Origin: Sphingomonas sp. ERG5
GTDB lineage: Bacteria > Pseudomonadota > Alphaproteobacteria > Sphingomonadales > Sphingomonadaceae
Direction of reading: 5' to 3'
NCBI RefSeq assembly: GCF_000803065.1
Contig: NZ_JSXI01000024.1
Location: forward strand, 248,001 to 312,000
DNA length: 64,000 nt
Notes under the pieces: generated by a model
What the model saw: only the letters and a program-made list of their open reading frames with translations
What the model was told of the DNA's origin: nothing
Database searches by the model: none
Position numbers and translations under genes: made by a program
In this document: in pieces, positions 2,581 to 56,776 of the stretch
How the letters are laid out: the number at the start of each line of letters is the position of its first letter
Numbering within the stretch: position 1 is the stretch's first letter

Positions 2581-3675
2581 ATGAAAAACAAGCTGGTGAG
2601 CAGCGGGCTGGAAGACGTGGTCGCGGCGGAAACCATATTGTCGGATGTGGACGGCATCGGAGGACGCTTGATCATCCGCGGCTTCCCGCTCGATGCACTG
2701 GCGGGCAGGAAGCGCTTCGAGGATGTCGTCCATCTGTTGTTCGATGGCTTTTTCGAGCCACTGCCCGAGCCGGCGCGCTTTGCCGCGATGCTGGGTGAGG
2801 CAAGGCTGGAAGCGTATCGGATCATTGCCCCCTTCCTTGACCGCCTTGCCGAACGGCCGGTCTATGACGCGATGCGGATCGGGGTGGCATACATGCCTGA
2901 TGGGGCAGGCCTCGCCGACGCGCTGCGCCTGATCGCCGCACCGGCAGTTCTGCTTCCCGCGCTGATCCGGCGGGCGGCGGGCTTGACGCCAATCGCACCC
3001 GCCCCCTTGCGTGGTCATGCGGAGGATATTCTGCGGATGCTCGGCCGTTCGAAGGGAGCCGCCGCGCTGGACGCTTATCTGGTGACGGTTTGCGACCATG
3101 GCCTGAACGCTTCGACATTTGCGGCGCGAGTCGTCGCCTCGACTCAGGCAGGCCTGACGTCCGCCGTGCTGGCGGGCCTCGGCGCGCTCAAGGGACCATT
3201 GCACGGCGGCGCACCGGGTCCGGTGATCGAGATGCTCGACGCGATTGCCGAAGCGGGACCCGATGCGGATCATGCCCGCCGATGGTTGACCCGCGCCGTG
3301 GCGGACGGTCAGCGCCTGATGGGGTTCGGGCATCGCATCTATCGCACCCGCGATCCACGTGCCGACGCGTTGAAGGCCGCGCTGCGCGATCTCGACCGGA
3401 ATGCCGGGCGGCTGATCCAGGCCGAGGCGGTCGAACGCATCGCGCTTGAGGTTTTGCGCGCGCACAAGCCGGATCGGGTGCTGGAAACCAATGTCGAATT
3501 CTACACCGCATTGCTGCTGGAAGCGGTCGGCTTTCCGACCGACGCCTTTACCGGCGTGTTCGCCATGGGGCGCGTCGCCGGGTGGATCGCCCATGCGCGT
3601 GAGCAAGCGATGACTGGCCGGCTGATCCGCCCGCAATCCCGCTACATCGCACCATCCGGCGAACTGGCCGCCTGA
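2581..3675 (+). CDS. Citrate synthase/methylcitrate synthase family protein
   Basis: A 364-residue citrate synthase-fold protein without the HTH of its divergent neighbour. Family motifs are present: HGLNASTFAARVVAST, then GPLHGGAPGPVIEML, then GFGHRIYRTRDPRADALKAA, and a C-terminal LETNVEFYTALLLEAVGFP that retains the N-V-E-F-Y-T form. These cover the oxaloacetate/acetyl-CoA histidines and the C-terminal acidic catalytic region, so this member looks more likely to be catalytically competent than the paralogue at 1376-2500. It is shorter than standard GltA (about 430 residues), so it is probably not the main TCA enzyme; methylcitrate synthase or a specialised condensing enzyme is possible. 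The ATG at 2581 follows a GGAACTGGCAG stretch acting as a modest ribosome site. Confidence 0.82.
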   Translation: MKNKLVSSGLEDVVAAETILSDVDGIGGRLIIRGFPLDALAGRKRFEDVVHLLFDGFFEPLPEPARFAAMLGEARLEAYRIIAPFLDRLAERPVYDAMRIGVAYMPDGAGLADALRLIAAPAVLLPALIRRAAGLTPIAPAPLRGHAEDILRMLGRSKGAAALDAYLVTVCDHGLNASTFAARVVASTQAGLTSAVLAGLGALKGPLHGGAPGPVIEMLDAIAEAGPDADHARRWLTRAVADGQRLMGFGHRIYRTRDPRADALKAALRDLDRNAGRLIQAEAVERIALEVLRAHKPDRVLETNVEFYTALLLEAVGFPTDAFTGVFAMGRVAGWIAHAREQAMTGRLIRPQSRYIAPSGELAA

Positions 3676-3842
3676 GCGCTCGCGCGCTTGAAAGGCGCGG
3701 ATATCGCAGCGGTTGGGGTTCCGACCGTTCCGCGCAGCACCATTTCCCTGCATGTGATGCCGGCCACCACTGGAATATGCCGGGAAGCGATTGCGCAGGA
3801 CGCGGCGGCGCGCGACAAGCGCGTCACATATAGGAGATTCCG

Positions 3843-5654
3843 ATGCGTTCAGCCGTTGCCTTGCTCTTGCTACCGATCGTCCCGCTCATCCAGGCAAGCG
3901 CTCCCGCGCCGGCCCCGGTGGCGCAAGCGGCCACGCAGGATAAGGCCTTGCTCGAGTTCCTGGACAAGGCATTCGATGAACAGACCAGCCTGAGCCCGGA
4001 AACCCAGACGCAGCTCGGATTCAAGACCAGCTATGATCGGCTGGACGATTATACCGACGCCGCGGCGATACGCGCGCGCGATCTGGCCGAGCGGCAACTC
4101 AAGGAAATGCATGCCCGGTTCCGGCCCGATCAGCTGGGGCAGAGTGCGCGCGTAAGTTATCGTCTGTTCGAATATGAAGTGACGCGCGGTCGTGAATCAT
4201 TCCAGTTCCGCAAACTGCGCTTTCCGGTCTCCACCAATGGCAGCCCGGCGGGCGAAATTCCGGTCCTGCTGATCAACAATCACAAGGTCGACACGGTTGA
4301 GGACGCCCAAGCCTATATCGCGCGCCTGCGCGACACCGAACGCGTCATGCGGGAAACCGCCGCGCTGATGCGGGAGCAGGCGGCGGCGGGAATCATACCC
4401 AACAAGGTCAATTTCGCGCCGGCCCGCGCCGACGCGCGCAAGATCATCGCCGGCGCGCCGTTCGACAATGGCCCGGATTCGACGCTGATGGCCGACTTCA
4501 GCAAGAAAGTGGCCGCGCTGAACGCACCGGCGGCGACCAGGGAAAAATTGCTGAGCGACGCGCGCGCGGCGCTGGCCGGTCCGTTCCGGCGTGGCTATGA
4601 CCTGCTGGGCGCGGCGCTGGATGAAATCGAGCCCAAGTCCAAGGGCAATTTCGGGGCCTGGAGCTTGCCGGACGGGGCGGCCTATTATGCCGACCGGCTG
4701 AAAAGCTCGACCACCACCAACCTGACCGCCGACGAGATCCACCAGCTGGGTCTCAGGCAAGTCGCCGCGATCCGCCAGGAAATGGAAGCGATCAAGCAGG
4801 AGGTTGGCTTCAAGGGGACGCTGGAGCAGTTCTTCGACCATATCCGGACCGACCCCCAGTTCAAATATCCGAACACCGAAGCCGGCCGTGAGGAGTATCT
4901 TCGCGACGCACGCGGGGTGATCGCGTCAGTGATGGCGGTGGCGCCGCGTTACTTCCACACGCTGCCCAAGGCGCCGCTGGAAGTACGCGCCGTGGAAAAA
5001 TGGCGCGAAGGGACCGCGCCGACGGCATTCTACAATCCGCCCTCGGCCGACGGATCCCGGCCCGGCATCTATTATGTCAATCTGGTCGACATGAACCAGA
5101 CGCAAAAGGTGCAGGTGGCCGGCATCGCCGCGCATGAAGGTGCGCCGGGGCACCATTTTCAGATCGCGCGGCAGCAGGAGCTGACCGGCATCCCCAAGTT
5201 CCGCAAATTCGGCGGCTATGGCGCTTACACCGAGGGTTGGGGGCTCTATTCGGAGCGCCTTGCCAATGAGATGGGCGTGTACAAGGACCCTTATGCCCGA
5301 CTGGGCATGTTGTCGCTCCAGGTGTGGCGGGCGATCCGACTGGTGCTCGACACGGGCATCCATTCCAAGCGCTGGACGCGCGAACAGGCGATCGCCTATT
5401 TCAAATCGAACAGTTCGATATCGGAGAAGGATATCGAGCGCGAGGTGGATCGCTATTTCAACTGGCCGGGCCAGGCGACCAGCTACATGGTAGGGCAACT
5501 CAAGATCGCCGAATTGCGGGCACGGGCCGAGAAGGAATTGGGGCCCCGCTTCGACATCCGGGACTTTCATGAGGCGGTGCTGAGCCAGGGCGCGCTGCCG
5601 CTTGACGTGCTCGAGGAGCAGGTTGACCGCTACATCGCGGCACATCGTCAATAA
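3843..5654 (+). CDS. DUF885 family exported protein, metallopeptidase-like
   Basis: A 603-residue protein with a signal peptide (MRSAVALLLLPIVPLIQASA) and ribosome site AGGAG six bases before ATG 3843. The family hallmark is an H-E-x-x-x-G-H-H motif, seen as AAHEGAPGHHFQIARQQE around residue 436, followed by TEGWGLYSERLANEMG (second acidic cluster). Both are the zinc-site signatures of DUF885, a probable periplasmic carboxypeptidase/dipeptidase-like family. Length is standard for the family. It stands alone, with its own promoter region of about 165 bases after the citrate synthase-like gene. The exact substrate is unknown; peptides are an inference from fold similarity to thermolysin-like and M32/M2 peptidases. 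Confidence 0.88.
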   Translation: MRSAVALLLLPIVPLIQASAPAPAPVAQAATQDKALLEFLDKAFDEQTSLSPETQTQLGFKTSYDRLDDYTDAAAIRARDLAERQLKEMHARFRPDQLGQSARVSYRLFEYEVTRGRESFQFRKLRFPVSTNGSPAGEIPVLLINNHKVDTVEDAQAYIARLRDTERVMRETAALMREQAAAGIIPNKVNFAPARADARKIIAGAPFDNGPDSTLMADFSKKVAALNAPAATREKLLSDARAALAGPFRRGYDLLGAALDEIEPKSKGNFGAWSLPDGAAYYADRLKSSTTTNLTADEIHQLGLRQVAAIRQEMEAIKQEVGFKGTLEQFFDHIRTDPQFKYPNTEAGREEYLRDARGVIASVMAVAPRYFHTLPKAPLEVRAVEKWREGTAPTAFYNPPSADGSRPGIYYVNLVDMNQTQKVQVAGIAAHEGAPGHHFQIARQQELTGIPKFRKFGGYGAYTEGWGLYSERLANEMGVYKDPYARLGMLSLQVWRAIRLVLDTGIHSKRWTREQAIAYFKSNSSISEKDIEREVDRYFNWPGQATSYMVGQLKIAELRARAEKELGPRFDIRDFHEAVLSQGALPLDVLEEQVDRYIAAHRQ

Positions 5655-14922: not shown

Positions 14923-15082
14923 TTCGGGCGAATCCGCATGTCGGCCCGATTCAACTCGCCCTCTGATGTCGTCATGCCGGTTCTCCGACGCAGCGTTGCG
15001 CGTCACGGATAAAACCCATTCGACCGGCGATTTGAATCAGCCGAACCGGAAAGCGCTCAGACGATGACACCCACCCCGGATC

Positions 15083-15228
15083 TTTCCCGATTTTCCCGCA
15101 AGGACCTCGAAAAACTCCCGTGCGGATCCATCAAAACTCCCGCAGCTTTTCCCGCAGACTCCCGCAGAACCCTCAAAAAGCATTTTCCCCCAGAAACTCC
15201 CGCAACAACTCCCGCAGCTGCGGGAGTT
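15083..15228. repeat. Cluster of CTCCCGCA repeats ending in a 22-bp palindrome
   Basis: The words TTTTCCCGCA, ACTCCCGCAG or close variants recur at about 15091, 15114, 15137, 15147, 15158, 15196 and 15207. They are separated by A- or T-rich spacers, and CCCGCA is always on the plus strand. The last copy, AACTCCCGCAG at 15207-15217, is followed directly by its exact reverse complement (15218-15228), giving a perfect 22-bp palindrome. Sequence alone does not show whether this is a protein-binding array, a replication-related element or a terminator region. Confidence 0.75.
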
Positions 15229-15445
15229 TGACCGCCGACGGCGGCGCACCGGAAGTCGCATTGCTTCGGATCCGGCATGACCTCATCGATTCAACCCCGC
15301 CGATCGATCCGTTAGCAACACTCCCGGACAGCGCCTCGCCATCGCCGTCCCGCTCTTTCACATGACGAACACCATAATCACGTGCCCGTTCCAGCGGAAC
15401 AAAGGGCATCCGATCCCCATGCTCCGCCCCTGTGTCGAGCGCCCC

Positions 15446-47890: not shown

Positions 47891-49321
47891 ATGACACGTG
47901 CAGCAATCATCGTCGCAGAGCTCGACAGGCTCTACACCGCTTCGGTCAAGCGGCTCCAGGGCGCCCTGACCGCCTATATCACCGACGGTACGACGCCCGA
48001 TCCGAAAAGCCGGACTGACGGATCGTTCGCCTATCCCGAAATCCACTTGCGATATCTCGGCCTGGATGATCGTCCCGCGCCGATCCGCTCGTTCGGCCGA
48101 TTGGTGACCCCGGGCGAATATCGCATCAGCGTGACCAAGCCGGCGATCTTCGCCGACTATCTGACCGAACAGCTGACTCTGTTGATCGAGGACTACGACG
48201 TTGAGGTCGAGGCGGTCGAGGGGCGGCAGGAAATCCCCTTCCCCTATGTGCTCGATGCCGGAAACGCGGTGAGCCTCGACGAAGTGTCGGCATCGGAGCT
48301 GGCGCGGCATTTTCCAGCCACCGAACTCGCCTATATCGGCGACGAGATCGCTGACGGACTGTACGACGCGGCGATCCGCCCGCTCGCCCTGTTCGACGGA
48401 CTGCGCACCGATTTCTCGCTCGCCCGGCTGCGCCACTATACCGGCACGCCGACCGAACATGTCCAGCGCTACATCCTGTTCACCAACTATCACCGCTATG
48501 TCGATGAATTCGTCCGCTGGGCGGCATCGCAGCTCGGTGAAGGCAGCCGCTACACCGGCCTGTCCGGTGCGGGCGGGGTGATGATCCATGCCGGCGACGA
48601 TGCCGACAAGATCGTCAGCGACAGCGCATGGCGGCGCCACCAGATGCCCGCCTATCATTTGATGGCGGAGGACGGCACCGGCATCACCCTGGTCAATATC
48701 GGCGTCGGCCCGTCCAATGCGAAGACGATCTGCGATCATCTCGCGGTGATGCGGCCCGAGGCATGGCTGATGATCGGCCATTGCGGCGGCCTGCGCCCCA
48801 GCCAGCGCATCGGCGACTATGTCCTGGCCCATGCCTATCTGCGTGACGACCATGTGCTCGACGATGTGTTGCCGCCGGAAATCCCGGTTCCGGCGATCGC
48901 TGAAGTGCAAGTCGCGATGGCACGTGCGGCGGAAACCATTTCGGGCCAGTCGGGCGAGGAATTGAAGCGCCGCCTGCGCACCGGCACGATCGTCACCACC
49001 GACGATCGCAACTGGGAATTGCGCTATTCGAAATCGGCGCTGCGCTTCTCGCTGTCGCGCGCGGTCGGCATCGACATGGAATCGGCGACCATCGCCGCGC
49101 AAGGATATCGCTTCCGCGTTCCCTATGGCACCTTGCTGTGCGTCTCGGACAAGCCCTTGCACGGCGAACTGAAATTGCCCGGCCAGGCCAATCGTTTCTA
49201 CGAACGCGCGATCAGCGAACATATGCGCATCGGTATCGAAACGTGCGAGGAGCTGCGTCGCGAAGGCGCCAAGCTTCACAGCCGCAAACTGCGCGCGTTC
49301 AACGAGCCGCCCTTCCGCTAA
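47891..49321 (+). CDS. amn: AMP nucleosidase
   Basis: A 476-residue AMP nucleosidase, which splits AMP to adenine and ribose 5-phosphate and so controls adenine nucleotide levels. The N-terminal domain (RLYTASVKRLQGALTAYITD) and the C-terminal nucleoside-phosphorylase fold (VNIGVGPSNAKTICDHLAVM, then WLMIGHCGGLRPSQRIGDYV, then GIDMESATIAAQGYRFRVPY) are clear. Length is standard. The start at ATG 47891 is in a GC-rich context with only a weak ribosome site. It is not in an obvious operon. Confidence 0.96.
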   Translation: MTRAAIIVAELDRLYTASVKRLQGALTAYITDGTTPDPKSRTDGSFAYPEIHLRYLGLDDRPAPIRSFGRLVTPGEYRISVTKPAIFADYLTEQLTLLIEDYDVEVEAVEGRQEIPFPYVLDAGNAVSLDEVSASELARHFPATELAYIGDEIADGLYDAAIRPLALFDGLRTDFSLARLRHYTGTPTEHVQRYILFTNYHRYVDEFVRWAASQLGEGSRYTGLSGAGGVMIHAGDDADKIVSDSAWRRHQMPAYHLMAEDGTGITLVNIGVGPSNAKTICDHLAVMRPEAWLMIGHCGGLRPSQRIGDYVLAHAYLRDDHVLDDVLPPEIPVPAIAEVQVAMARAAETISGQSGEELKRRLRTGTIVTTDDRNWELRYSKSALRFSLSRAVGIDMESATIAAQGYRFRVPYGTLLCVSDKPLHGELKLPGQANRFYERAISEHMRIGIETCEELRREGAKLHSRKLRAFNEPPFR

Positions 49322-49378
49322 AAGGAAACCAACCAGCCCCGGTTGCGTTACGCAAGCTCAACGACTCAGGAATCTCTC

Positions 49379-49819
49379 ATGGCAACGCCCCCGAAGAAGC
49401 CGGCTCCCCGTCGCAAGCCCGCCATCACGCGCAAGCCCGCCGCCGCGCGCAAACCCAATGTGGCGCCGCTGGCAGCAGCGGCAGCGACGCCGGCACCGGT
49501 CGAGGCCCAGGTGAGCGCCACCAAGCCAAAGACACCGGCCAAGCCGCGCGCTAAAGCGCCGGCTCGGCCAAAGACAACCACGCGCCCCAGCGTCGCGGCA
49601 GCCACCATCGCGGCGCGCAATGCCGCCGTAACCACTCTCGACAAGGCGCGTCAGGCCGTGGTCGACGCGTCGCCCGCGAAGAAATGGACCGCCGCCGCGA
49701 TTCTGGGTGGCATCGGCGCTGCCGTGACCGCCACTTTGCTCACCCTGCGCGGCAGCACGCCCAAGGCCAGACCAGTCAAGAAGACGCCGTCGGCCAAGGG
49801 CTCAGATTCCTCAAAATAG
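49379..49819 (+). CDS. Lys/Ala/Pro-rich histone H1-like membrane protein
   Basis: A 146-residue protein; start ATG 49379 with AGGA eight bases upstream. The N-terminal two thirds are rich in Lys, Arg, Pro and Ala with repeated motifs (PRRKPAITRKPAAARKP; KPKTPAKPRAKAPARPK), like bacterial histone H1-type nucleoid proteins. Near residues 104-123 there is a hydrophobic segment (WTAAAILGGIGAAVTATLLT) followed by a short basic tail. DNA or polyanion binding at the membrane is an inference. The frame is highly biased, so low-complexity composition calls for caution. Preceded by amn (57-base gap) and followed by a strong terminator. Confidence 0.68.
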   Translation: MATPPKKPAPRRKPAITRKPAAARKPNVAPLAAAAATPAPVEAQVSATKPKTPAKPRAKAPARPKTTTRPSVAAATIAARNAAVTTLDKARQAVVDASPAKKWTAAAILGGIGAAVTATLLTLRGSTPKARPVKKTPSAKGSDSSK

Positions 49820-49885
49820 AGCGGAACCGGGCGCCCATGACAGGGCGTCCGCCCGATTCAACCGCACGGCGGATTACGGCACAGT

Positions 49886-49925
49886 AAGAGCCGGCCAGGT
49901 GCATCAGGCACCCGGCCGGCTCTTT
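49886..49925 (+). terminator. Strong rho-independent terminator
   Basis: AAGAGCCGGCCAGGTGC (49886-49902) pairs with GCACCCGGCCGGCTCTT (49908-49924) with one mismatch, a five-base loop and a following T. It ends the histone-like gene transcript and is flanked by A and T runs on both sides, so it could also work in reverse. Confidence 0.85.
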
Positions 49926-49953
49926 GACATGACCATCAAAGGAACGGATCCCC

Positions 49954-50122
49954 GATGCTGTTATCGGGGGAGTCCGATGCTGTTATTGCGCTGGTTCCAT
50001 GCTGTTATCGATAACAGCATGGATGACAATCAAGCGATTGATAACGAAGGATAATTCTTCCGGGAATTTCCAACTTAACAGCATCGGAAAAATTTCACGC
50101 CGGAAACAGCACATAACAGCAG
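49954..50122. repeat. GCTGTTAT repeat cluster with 26-bp palindrome
   Basis: GATGCTGTTATC (49954-49965) and GATGCTGTTATT (49976-49987) are direct copies. A perfect 26-bp palindrome at 49997-50022 consists of CCATGCTGTTATC followed by its reverse complement. Inverted copies follow as TTAACAGCATCGG (50075-50087) and ATAACAGCAG near 50113-50122. The region is AT-richer than its surroundings. This could be a binding-site array for a dimeric regulator, or a recombination or replication-linked element; no protein partner is visible nearby. Confidence 0.78.
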
Positions 50123-50234
50123 CGTCTTGTTGTCCGATCCGCGACCGGAAACCTCGTCTCTCGGCACAGGTCGCAGCGGCTCGATTCAAAAAACCGCGGT
50201 CGCCCCCGCGCCGCGACACGAGGGCGGAACGCGC

Positions 50235-52085
50235 TTACCAGCCGGTCGGCTTGCCCTTGTTCTGCTCGTCGAGCCAAGTCTTGAGCGGTGCGAAATATTC
50301 GACCATCGCCGCACCCGACATTTCCTTCGTGCCGGTGAACGCTTCGAGCGCTTCGGGCCAGGGCTTGGACTGGCCCATCTTCAGCATTGCGTCGAGCTTC
50401 GCGCCGACCTCCTTGTTACCATAGAAGGAGCAGCGATGCAGCGGGCCCTTCCAGCCGGACTGGTCGCACGCCGCCTTGTAGAACTGGAACTGCAGCAGCC
50501 GTGCGAGGAAGTAGCGCGTGTACGGCACACTCGCCGGGACATGATATTTCGCGCCTGCATCGAACCTGGTCTCGTCCCGCTCGACCGGCGGCGTGATGCC
50601 CTGATATTGCAGGCGCAGCGCATTCCATGACGCTTCATAACCCTTCGGCTTGATCGTGCCGGAAAACACACCCCAGCGCCATTTGTCGATCAGCAGCCCG
50701 AACGGCAGGAACGCAACCTTGTCCATCGCCTGTTTGAGGAGCAGGCCGGTGTCCTTGTCCGCGCTCGGCACCTTGGCCTTGTCGAGCAGGCCGATCTGCA
50801 CGAGATAATCGGGCGTGATCGACAAGGCGACGAAATCGCCGATCGCTTCATGGAAGCCGTCATTCGCGCCGTTCAGATACAGCATGGGCTGGTTCTGATA
50901 GGCGCGCTGGTAATAATTATGCCCAAGTTCGTGATGGATGGTGACGAAATCGTCGCCATTGACCTTGGTGCACATCTTGATGCGCACGTCATTCTTGTTG
51001 TCGAGATCCCAGGCCGAAGCATGGCAGATCACTTCGCGATCGGCCGGCTTGGTGATCTGCGAGCGAGTCCAGAAAGTGTCGGGCAGCGGTGCGAAGCCGA
51101 GCGAGGAATAGAAGCCCTCGCCAGTCTTGACCATCTTGACCGGGTCATAGCCCTTGGCCTTCAACAGCTCGCCGGTATCGAAGCCGAGATCGCCGGCGCC
51201 CTTGGGCGCGACCAGGTCATAGATGTTACCCCATTCCTGCGCCCACATATTGCCGAGCAGGTCGGCGCGGATCGGGCCGGTCTTGGACTGGACCGCATCG
51301 CCATATTTCTCGTTAAGCTTCCAGCGAACATAGGTGTGGAGCGACTGATAGAGCGGCTCGACTTCCTTCCACAGCTTGTCGGTGAGCTTGGCGAATTCCT
51401 CCGGGCTCATGTCATAGCCCGAGCGCCACAGCGACCCGACATCCTTGTAGCCCAGCTCGACCGCGCCCTGATTGCCGATCTCGACCATGCGCGCATAATC
51501 CTCGCGCATCGGCGCACCGACATTGTCGTGCCAGCTGACCCACATTTCCTTGAGCTTGGCCGGGTCACGCTCCGTGCCCATCGCCGCTTCGATATCGCTG
51601 CCGTTGATCGGCTTGCCGGCGAGCGTGCCCTTGCCCTTGCCGTACGAGGACGACATGCGCGTCACGATCGTCGACAGCTCGGTCGCGGCGCCTTCCTTGG
51701 TCGGTGCCGGCAAGGTCAGGCCGCCGCGCAGCAGGTCGAGCTTGCGCCGCGTATCGGGCGACAGGCCGGCGACCTTGTCATATCTCGCCGCCTCGAGCGC
51801 GAACTTGACCGACAATTCGGTACCGGTGGCGTTGATCCGCGCCGCCATCGCATCGGTGTCTTCGGTGATATAGGTCGCGTTGACCCAATTGACCTGGCTC
51901 GACTCGATCGAGAAATCGAACAGCTTCTTCTCCGCCACCGCGACAAAGGCGTCGGCATCGGCGGCGGTCGGTGTGGCTGCGGACGCCTTCGTCGCAGCAG
52001 GTTTGTCCTGCTTGTCCTTGGCAAGCGTCGGCGTGGCGGCGATCGCGCAAGCGAGCGCCACGAACGAAATTCCGGTGCGGATCAT
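50235..52085 (-). CDS. M2 family metallopeptidase (peptidyl-dipeptidase A type)
   Basis: A 616-residue exported zinc peptidase of the angiotensin-converting-enzyme family. Signal peptide is IRTGISFVALACAIAATPTLA. The zinc motif is H-E-x-x-H, in FVTIHHELGHNYYQRAYQ, with the third ligand in NDGFHEAIGDFVALS 24 residues on. Length matches bacterial M2 enzymes. It probably removes dipeptides from peptide C-termini in the periplasm. The gene is convergent with the preceding ones and has an 83-base gap to the alpha/beta hydrolase gene on its right. Confidence 0.95.
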   Translation of the reverse strand: MIRTGISFVALACAIAATPTLAKDKQDKPAATKASAATPTAADADAFVAVAEKKLFDFSIESSQVNWVNATYITEDTDAMAARINATGTELSVKFALEAARYDKVAGLSPDTRRKLDLLRGGLTLPAPTKEGAATELSTIVTRMSSSYGKGKGTLAGKPINGSDIEAAMGTERDPAKLKEMWVSWHDNVGAPMREDYARMVEIGNQGAVELGYKDVGSLWRSGYDMSPEEFAKLTDKLWKEVEPLYQSLHTYVRWKLNEKYGDAVQSKTGPIRADLLGNMWAQEWGNIYDLVAPKGAGDLGFDTGELLKAKGYDPVKMVKTGEGFYSSLGFAPLPDTFWTRSQITKPADREVICHASAWDLDNKNDVRIKMCTKVNGDDFVTIHHELGHNYYQRAYQNQPMLYLNGANDGFHEAIGDFVALSITPDYLVQIGLLDKAKVPSADKDTGLLLKQAMDKVAFLPFGLLIDKWRWGVFSGTIKPKGYEASWNALRLQYQGITPPVERDETRFDAGAKYHVPASVPYTRYFLARLLQFQFYKAACDQSGWKGPLHRCSFYGNKEVGAKLDAMLKMGQSKPWPEALEAFTGTKEMSGAAMVEYFAPLKTWLDEQNKGKPTGW

Positions 52086-56653: not shown

Positions 56654-56776
56654 TGGAATAATATCCTCCCCCGGCCACGATTCAACCATGGCCCGAGATC
56701 AAGCATGTCATCCCTCGCCAGCCCCGAACCGGCGCGCTCTTTCTCACTGTCGGAACCAGCATGCAGCGCGGCGAGC

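Follow-up and report, generated by a model that had tools for sequence, protein, structure and literature searches.

In a gap between two convergent genes, the window (the whole stretch of 64,000 nucleotides analysed here) carries an array of short repeated words around a perfect palindrome, and the question is what such an array might serve at a place where both neighbouring genes end. The initial annotation had described two direct copies, a 26-bp palindrome and further inverted copies, and had proposed a site for a nucleoid, segregation or replication protein, or a site of recombination.

Structure of the array in the window

The array, at positions 49955-50120, represents a single copy of an intergenic, modular element about 300 bp long. 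All five occurrences of GCTGTTAT in the 64-kb window sit in it (49957, 49979 and 50001 forward, 50011 and 50113 reverse); shuffled versions of the window contain 0.57 on average and three at most, none of 100 shuffles reaching five, and the array of repeated motifs is accordingly real. The first description has to be corrected in its details. Three direct copies of the word ATGCTGTTAT follow each other in exact 22-bp steps (49955, 49977 and 49999), the first two standing free at 49955-49964 and 49977-49986 on the plus strand and the third serving as left palindrome arm. The palindrome, which is perfect, measures 28 bp (49996-50023), with word arms at 49999-50008 on the plus and 50011-50020 on the minus strand. 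It is followed by an IHF-like stretch, AATCAAGCGATTG (50028-50040, plus strand), which is a consensus match only, and by A/T tracts on the plus strand (50041-50098), phased at about 11-12 bp as a family-level result and possibly representing bent DNA. Three inverted words on the minus strand complete the array, namely TAACAGCAT (50076-50084), the degenerate AAACAGC (50104-50110) and ATAACAGC (50113-50120), at the family positions +63/64, +90 to +93 and +99 to +102, respectively; these further inverted copies had been noted correctly, as had the gene-free gap between convergent genes. Upstream lies a 5' module, GATTCAA ... CTCTTTGACA (49855-49929, plus strand), one of 58 such modules in the source genome, which includes a GC-rich hairpin predicted by single-strand folding (49886-49924, plus strand; 17-nt arms, 5-nt loop).

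The left flank is formed by an Ala/Pro/Lys-rich ORF without Pfam match (49379-49819) and the right flank by the gene of an M2-family peptidase (50235-52085, minus strand); the second gene leftward is of the AMP nucleosidase type, and no replication initiator gene is found among these neighbours. A second, related element is present in the window at 15075-15362 (plus strand, start approximate), in which TTCCCGCAG-type words and a CCCGCAGCTGCGGG palindrome (15211-15224) precede a 5' module (15288-15362). It is one instance of a CCCGCAG word family that adjoins modules in the source genome. One of its probe patterns, TTTCCCGCAGATTCCCGCAG, is present in 14 exact copies there and absent from the other 294 genomes of the genus, and the 7-mer CCCGCAG is without enrichment in the 64-kb window (11 against 19.5 expected). 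A third 5' module at 56679-56746 (plus strand), matched only by a loosened pattern, has no word array and adjoins an inverted repeat, ATTCCCGCGAACGCGGGAAT, at about 56575.

Dispersal and gene context in the source genome

Over the 5.74 Mb and 86 contigs of the source genome, ATGCTGTTAT has 80 matches against 2 for the reversed control pattern, hence the genome-wide word count suggested in the initial annotation speaks against random expectation as an explanation. The palindrome TGTTATNNNATAACA is found exactly at 42 sites and nowhere in the control, the contrast becoming weaker when up to two mismatches are allowed (85 against 49). Altogether 46 elements were read, 45 of which have full flanks and could be scored, and the one at a contig end was left out of the profile counts. 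Decayed copies exist, as do 5' modules without arrays; the former are under-counted, because elements were gathered by palindrome or word pattern.

All 46 elements are intergenic when compared with approximate gene calls. The orientation of the neighbouring genes is likewise approximate, because the home-made codon score used for gene calling passes over some genes (for example the seemingly real ORF 3052-4494 at locus L040): 22 of the 45 elements lie between convergent genes, 12 run along both neighbours, 8 stand between divergent genes and 3 are opposed to both neighbours. In 34 of 45 cases, or in 30 of 39 when each of the six tandem pairs, which are counted twice among the 45, is taken once, the 5' neighbour is directed toward the element. 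A promoter regulon is disfavoured by this gene orientation, and the array is, in line with the initial annotation, unlikely to serve as operator DNA of its flanking genes.

Architecture of the element family

The typical order is a 5' module (GATTCAA, hairpin, GCTCTTTSNCAT), direct words, the palindrome, the IHF-like CAA-N4-TTGAAAA, A/T tracts and inverted words. Within the 5' module, GATTCAA is followed by about 55-65 bp, often with a GC hairpin, and then by GCTCTTTSNCAT. The module mostly faces the 3' end of a gene, and it is lacking in the second members of tandem pairs and in some other elements. The palindrome usually has three central bases (word-NNN-word'), and many elements show a weak CGAnTC motif at about +114, +124 or +136.

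The geometry of these parts is rigid. Among the upstream CTGTT copies within 80 bp of the palindrome, 123 of 140 are placed within 1 bp of a multiple of 11, and 109 of 115 downstream AACAG copies are located at 63/64, 90-93 or 99-102. The A-tracts are phased at 10-12 bp with a power that none of 500 sequence shuffles reaches. A match to the IHF-like consensus with no more than one mismatch is present in 10 of 45 elements, compared with 0.9 expected by shuffling, and its place is nearly fixed; this match to the consensus hints that IHF itself might bind there.

Word constraint and co-switching

The 45 scorable elements fall into two word families, 26 with GCTGTT (ATGCTGTTAT) and 19 with CCTGTT (CACCTGTTAT). 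Palindrome arms are 99% identical in the GCTGTT and 94% in the CCTGTT family, values that partly stem from the search pattern, which covered 12 of 20 arm bases; the other arm bases and the downstream copies were free of this selection. The adjoining spacers are 46% identical in ungapped comparison, against 26-27% after shuffling. The right arm ends in GCAT in all 26 GCTGTT elements, the first two of these bases having served to split the families. The satellite words follow the palindrome of their own element: 243 of 251 agree with its family, 3 carry the base of the other family and 5 neither. The six tandem pairs, with members 187-252 bp apart, all combine different families, and their satellites still follow their own palindrome; two of these loci are apparently near-copies, and a seventh possible pair (contig C3, with a degenerate second palindrome) was left out of the count. 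This change of words in nearly all copies together suggests a matching protein.

In the sister genome G068, the arms are of the TGC, GGC or CCC type, with one mixed case, and the satellites again mostly match the arms. Further words (CTCCCTGYT, ACCCCTGC and CCGCTGTTCC, read by eye) stand behind the same 5' module in other genomes. Locus L239 of genome G033 combines CACCTGTTAT and repeated GTGCTGTTATC in one array, which was possibly caught in transition between words. Locus L295 of G068 (2188-2319) holds twelve exact tandem copies of the 11-mer TAACAGCCAGC within one element and is possibly a fast-evolving locus. At the loci L230-L238 of G033, no word array comes after the 5' module and several have a CCCGCAG-type array before it; these modules look like a distinct subfamily.

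Occupied and empty sites in related genomes

The genes flanking the array of the window are syntenic in six relatives, and the element is absent in all six. Neither the module nor the palindrome nor CTGTTAT was found in the six syntenic stretches. The inserted block, with an extent of approximately 49816-50195 on the plus strand, has approximate borders because short filler of a different kind stands in the relatives and the upstream gene varies in its tail, which also means that the locus does not represent a clean insertion. The upstream Ala/Pro/Lys-rich ORF of the window lacks a C-terminal tail that is present in G033 and, as judged by eye, in G144, G145, G266 and G293. The same tail is missing in the sister G068, which yet has no element at this locus, hence the loss of the tail need not stem from insertion. 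Absence from very close strains had been named in the initial annotation as an argument against the array; at the level of related species, such absence is true of this locus but untrue of the family.

A second locus, L046, is occupied in the source genome (G000) and in G068, and is without module, palindrome and word in the other seven of the eight genomes searched. Its genes stand almost end to end in G144, G145, G266, G271, G265 and G293, and in G033 they are separated by about 100 bp of unrelated filler. The two elements at this site have like ends and the same orientation, with an ATG word in the source genome and a CTGG word, in the form of the 12 exact tandem 11-mers, in G068. Presence/absence polymorphism, a trait of MITEs, is therefore found at two loci between species. 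Terminal inverted repeats or a target duplication were not evident by eye at these two loci, where the filler of the relatives blurs the borders, and the elements are too diverged for recent copies.

Nine loci have an element with recognisable 5' module in both the source genome and G068, with the same orientation in all nine. The word differs at six of them (L198/L062, L202/L075, L204/L058, L207/L055, L221/L077 and L295/L046) and is the same at three (L200/L045, L206/L067 and L226/L063, the last being flanked on either side by additional DNA in the source genome). For G068, 13 loci were taken in coordinate order and 9 were chosen for their likeness to the window element, and L295 was found via the locus in the source genome. 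Three syntenic pairs (L223/L080, L227/L054 and L228/L053) were excluded from this tally, as their members did not both show the module pattern, and pairs with G144 and G145 were compared and not counted because their matching flanks put the elements off the site of the source genome or with extra DNA between.

Between unrelated elements, the 5' modules share 65% identity (sd 5%, 36 modules). Same-word pairs reach 77-84% with G068, and 84% and 73% in two pairs with G033; different-word pairs show 59, 62, 67, 72 and 81%, L295/L046 not being included. At L221/L077, it looks from these sequences as if the module was inherited and the word array was changed. At the other different-word sites, the element may have been exchanged in full, or the same site may have been struck twice by insertion. 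Inherited module, replacement and double insertion are all compatible with arrays as exchangeable cassettes.

Range among genomes

Among 295 genomes of the genus, the 5' module pattern matches in ten, being multi-copy (10 to 94) in nine and a chance-like single match in one, with zero matches in controls and none in the other 285. G068 is the richest genome, with 94 modules. In a gene tree that did not include G265 and G271, seven of the nine multi-copy genomes form one clade (support 97/97). The palindrome pattern occurs in 19 of the 295 genomes, at least five times in seven of the nine module genomes and once each in twelve others, and these single matches for the most part look like chance. 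In the order-wide sample of 216 genomes, some of the same genus, the module was matched in five, namely the source genome and four with single matches that look like chance, and the controls gave one match.

No match to a 301-base query was obtained among plasmids. Viral contigs yielded one stretch, with a palindrome within sequence of 39% GC and without module. Named genomes yielded 11 stretches, three of them from Sphingomonas (NZ_CP098774.1 of Sphingomonas sp. QA11, and two from the MAG RYN_525), with the module in one of these three; the eight stretches from other organisms were without it. Among the matches listed for the open-access literature there is no description of the element, which is weak evidence of absence.

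Search for a cognate protein or a mobile parent

A RAYT/REP link was considered and rejected: PF01797 matches, which occur in 33 of the 295 genomes, are not linked to the elements. Such a match is present in eight of the nine module-bearing genomes but not in G068, the richest in modules. The word palindrome was found in none of 18 stretches around Y1_Tnp matches and the 5' module, by a loosened pattern, in one; 15 of these stretches came from module-bearing genomes and a few were shortened by contig ends.

Clustering of 973 ORF translations of at least 80 aa around element loci gave no suspicious recurrent neighbour. Judged by eye from its first residues, the largest cluster (10 loci) resembles the start of a TonB-dependent receptor, and the other clusters with at least four loci look like common families or orthologous loci. 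An autonomous parent beside the odd gaps L040, L053, L054 and L056 was likewise rejected, as no transposase- or recombinase-like ORF was seen there by eye.

Discussion

In its build, the element is nearest to BOX and BIME-1, and as far as tested it appears to lie outside both definitions. The middle units of BOX elements are about 45 bp long, whereas the middle is here an 11-bp helical word. BOX elements of Streptococcus pneumoniae are modular dispersed repeats of the form boxA-boxB(n)-boxC with a variable tandem middle, and the present elements are like them in being modular and dispersed with a variable number of tandem middle units, as far as the consulted part of that source goes (PMC3049150). 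Of BOX-like fixed ends, the 5' module next to a variable copy number is present, and the 3' end bears only the weak CGAnTC motif. The same part of the BOX source describes no co-switching of words within an element, no inverted satellites and no word families at shared sites (PMC3049150). According to the part consulted on REP sequences, inter-REP DNA of BIME-1 interacts with IHF and REPs co-evolve with their cognate transposase; the likeness lies in dispersed extragenic palindromes around an IHF-interacting, here only IHF-like, stretch (PMC2817692). Unlike in REPs, no GTAG/CGTC head was noticed by eye beside the palindrome in the listed elements, and unlike in REP/RAYT systems, the genome with the most modules is without a Y1 transposase match, and the matches elsewhere lack flanking elements in the 18 stretches read.

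Iteron-type plasmid origins contain direct repeats in helical register and a palindromic rep operator of the same half-site, and the array resembles them in its helically phased direct repeats and a palindrome made from the same half-site. The dozens of scattered chromosomal copies, and neighbours of the window copy that are not replication genes, set it apart. The DNA uptake sequence dialects of Neisseriaceae, in the part of the source consulted, are short-word variants tied to a receptor protein; compared with that account, the word here stands in a fixed architecture of about 300 bp, in tens of copies and with at least two dialects in one genome. MITEs and Correia-type elements are short non-coding insertions that are absent in related genomes. 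The present elements share these properties, but inspection revealed no terminal inverted repeats accompanied by a clear target duplication, and the internal word geometry is kept fixed.

We consider it fairly probable that the array is a member of a clade-specific superfamily of inserted modular elements with words read by putative word-specific DNA-binding proteins. The elements are probably mobile and non-autonomous. The reading of words by such proteins is itself somewhat favoured over the contrary, and that the same proteins also move the arrays has slightly less than an even chance. In the mechanism we propose, a word-specific protein, recombinase-like or encoded by an element, would bind the word copies, and IHF or an IHF-like protein would bend the middle of the element. 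The bent DNA might then fold the bound copies into one nucleoprotein complex that could copy or exchange arrays. Different words would mark different protein specificities, and new word families would replace older ones at the same chromosomal sites.

It is less probable, and rather unlikely in our view, that the elements are relics of non-autonomous MITE- or REP-like repeats without present function, in which the likeness of words is due to slippage and gene conversion within elements and to shared descent between them. The dispersed, intergenic and patchy occurrence fits such relics, as do the decayed copies, the 5' modules without arrays and the tandem 11-mers of G068, which appear as if derived from slippage. 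However, spacers with 46% identity next to palindrome arms with 94-99%, and spacings mostly kept to 1-2 bp over 100 bp, argue against it, and conversion within elements leaves the same word in 26 elements unexplained.

Somewhat more doubtful is selection for an RNA or single-strand structure, in which upstream words pair with downstream inverted words and change by compensation. Folded as single-stranded DNA, the window element is far more stable than its shuffles (z -7.8), its words pairing in nested fashion, and the 5' module often has a terminator-like hairpin. Pairing, however, requires neither one word in dozens of elements nor the 11-bp phasing of the direct copies; moreover, the folding of the 5' module is weak on average (mean z -1.1, 30 modules), and the three Rfam matches in 49000-51000 are all far below the gathering score.

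Sites that serve the host chromosome in nucleoid structure, segregation or replication, with words following changes of a host protein, are quite improbable. The intergenic position, often between convergent genes (22 of 45), and the retention at shared sites for a time would be in line with them, but two or more word families coexist in one genome, related species differ by gain and loss of loci, and the module pattern has no match in most genomes of the genus (285 of 295). From the initial proposal of a nucleoid, segregation, replication or recombination site, a sequence-specific protein remains likely, whereas a unique site tied to this gap does not. Dozens of such insertions are scattered over the genome, the array being one of them, and with its locus empty in all six relatives a fixed role as terminus, origin or dif-like site is disfavoured here. 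A transcription regulon with the elements as operators, for example of a LacI-type repressor, whose operators we take the elements to resemble in their short perfect palindrome with helically phased copies, can practically be dismissed, because according to the approximate gene calls no more than 8 of 45 elements are placed between divergent genes, as against 22 between gene ends.

Returning to the superfamily with word-specific readers, a bolder version appears possible and is put forward tentatively. The elements and their proteins might form a new class with switchable dialects, in which one docking module is combined with interchangeable arrays and paralogous word readers, and turnover of the readers overwrites the words at fixed sites. 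PRDM9 and its hotspots are somewhat like such a dialect turnover, the dialect system instead being built on mobile DNA. If the reading of words by specific proteins is right, the family would provide a natural set of DNA words together with their readers, two or more within one cell. Sister species with different words at the same site would make it directly testable how DNA-binding specificity evolves and how a new specificity takes over a family of sites. It would furthermore add a modular family to the little-understood dispersed repeats of bacteria.
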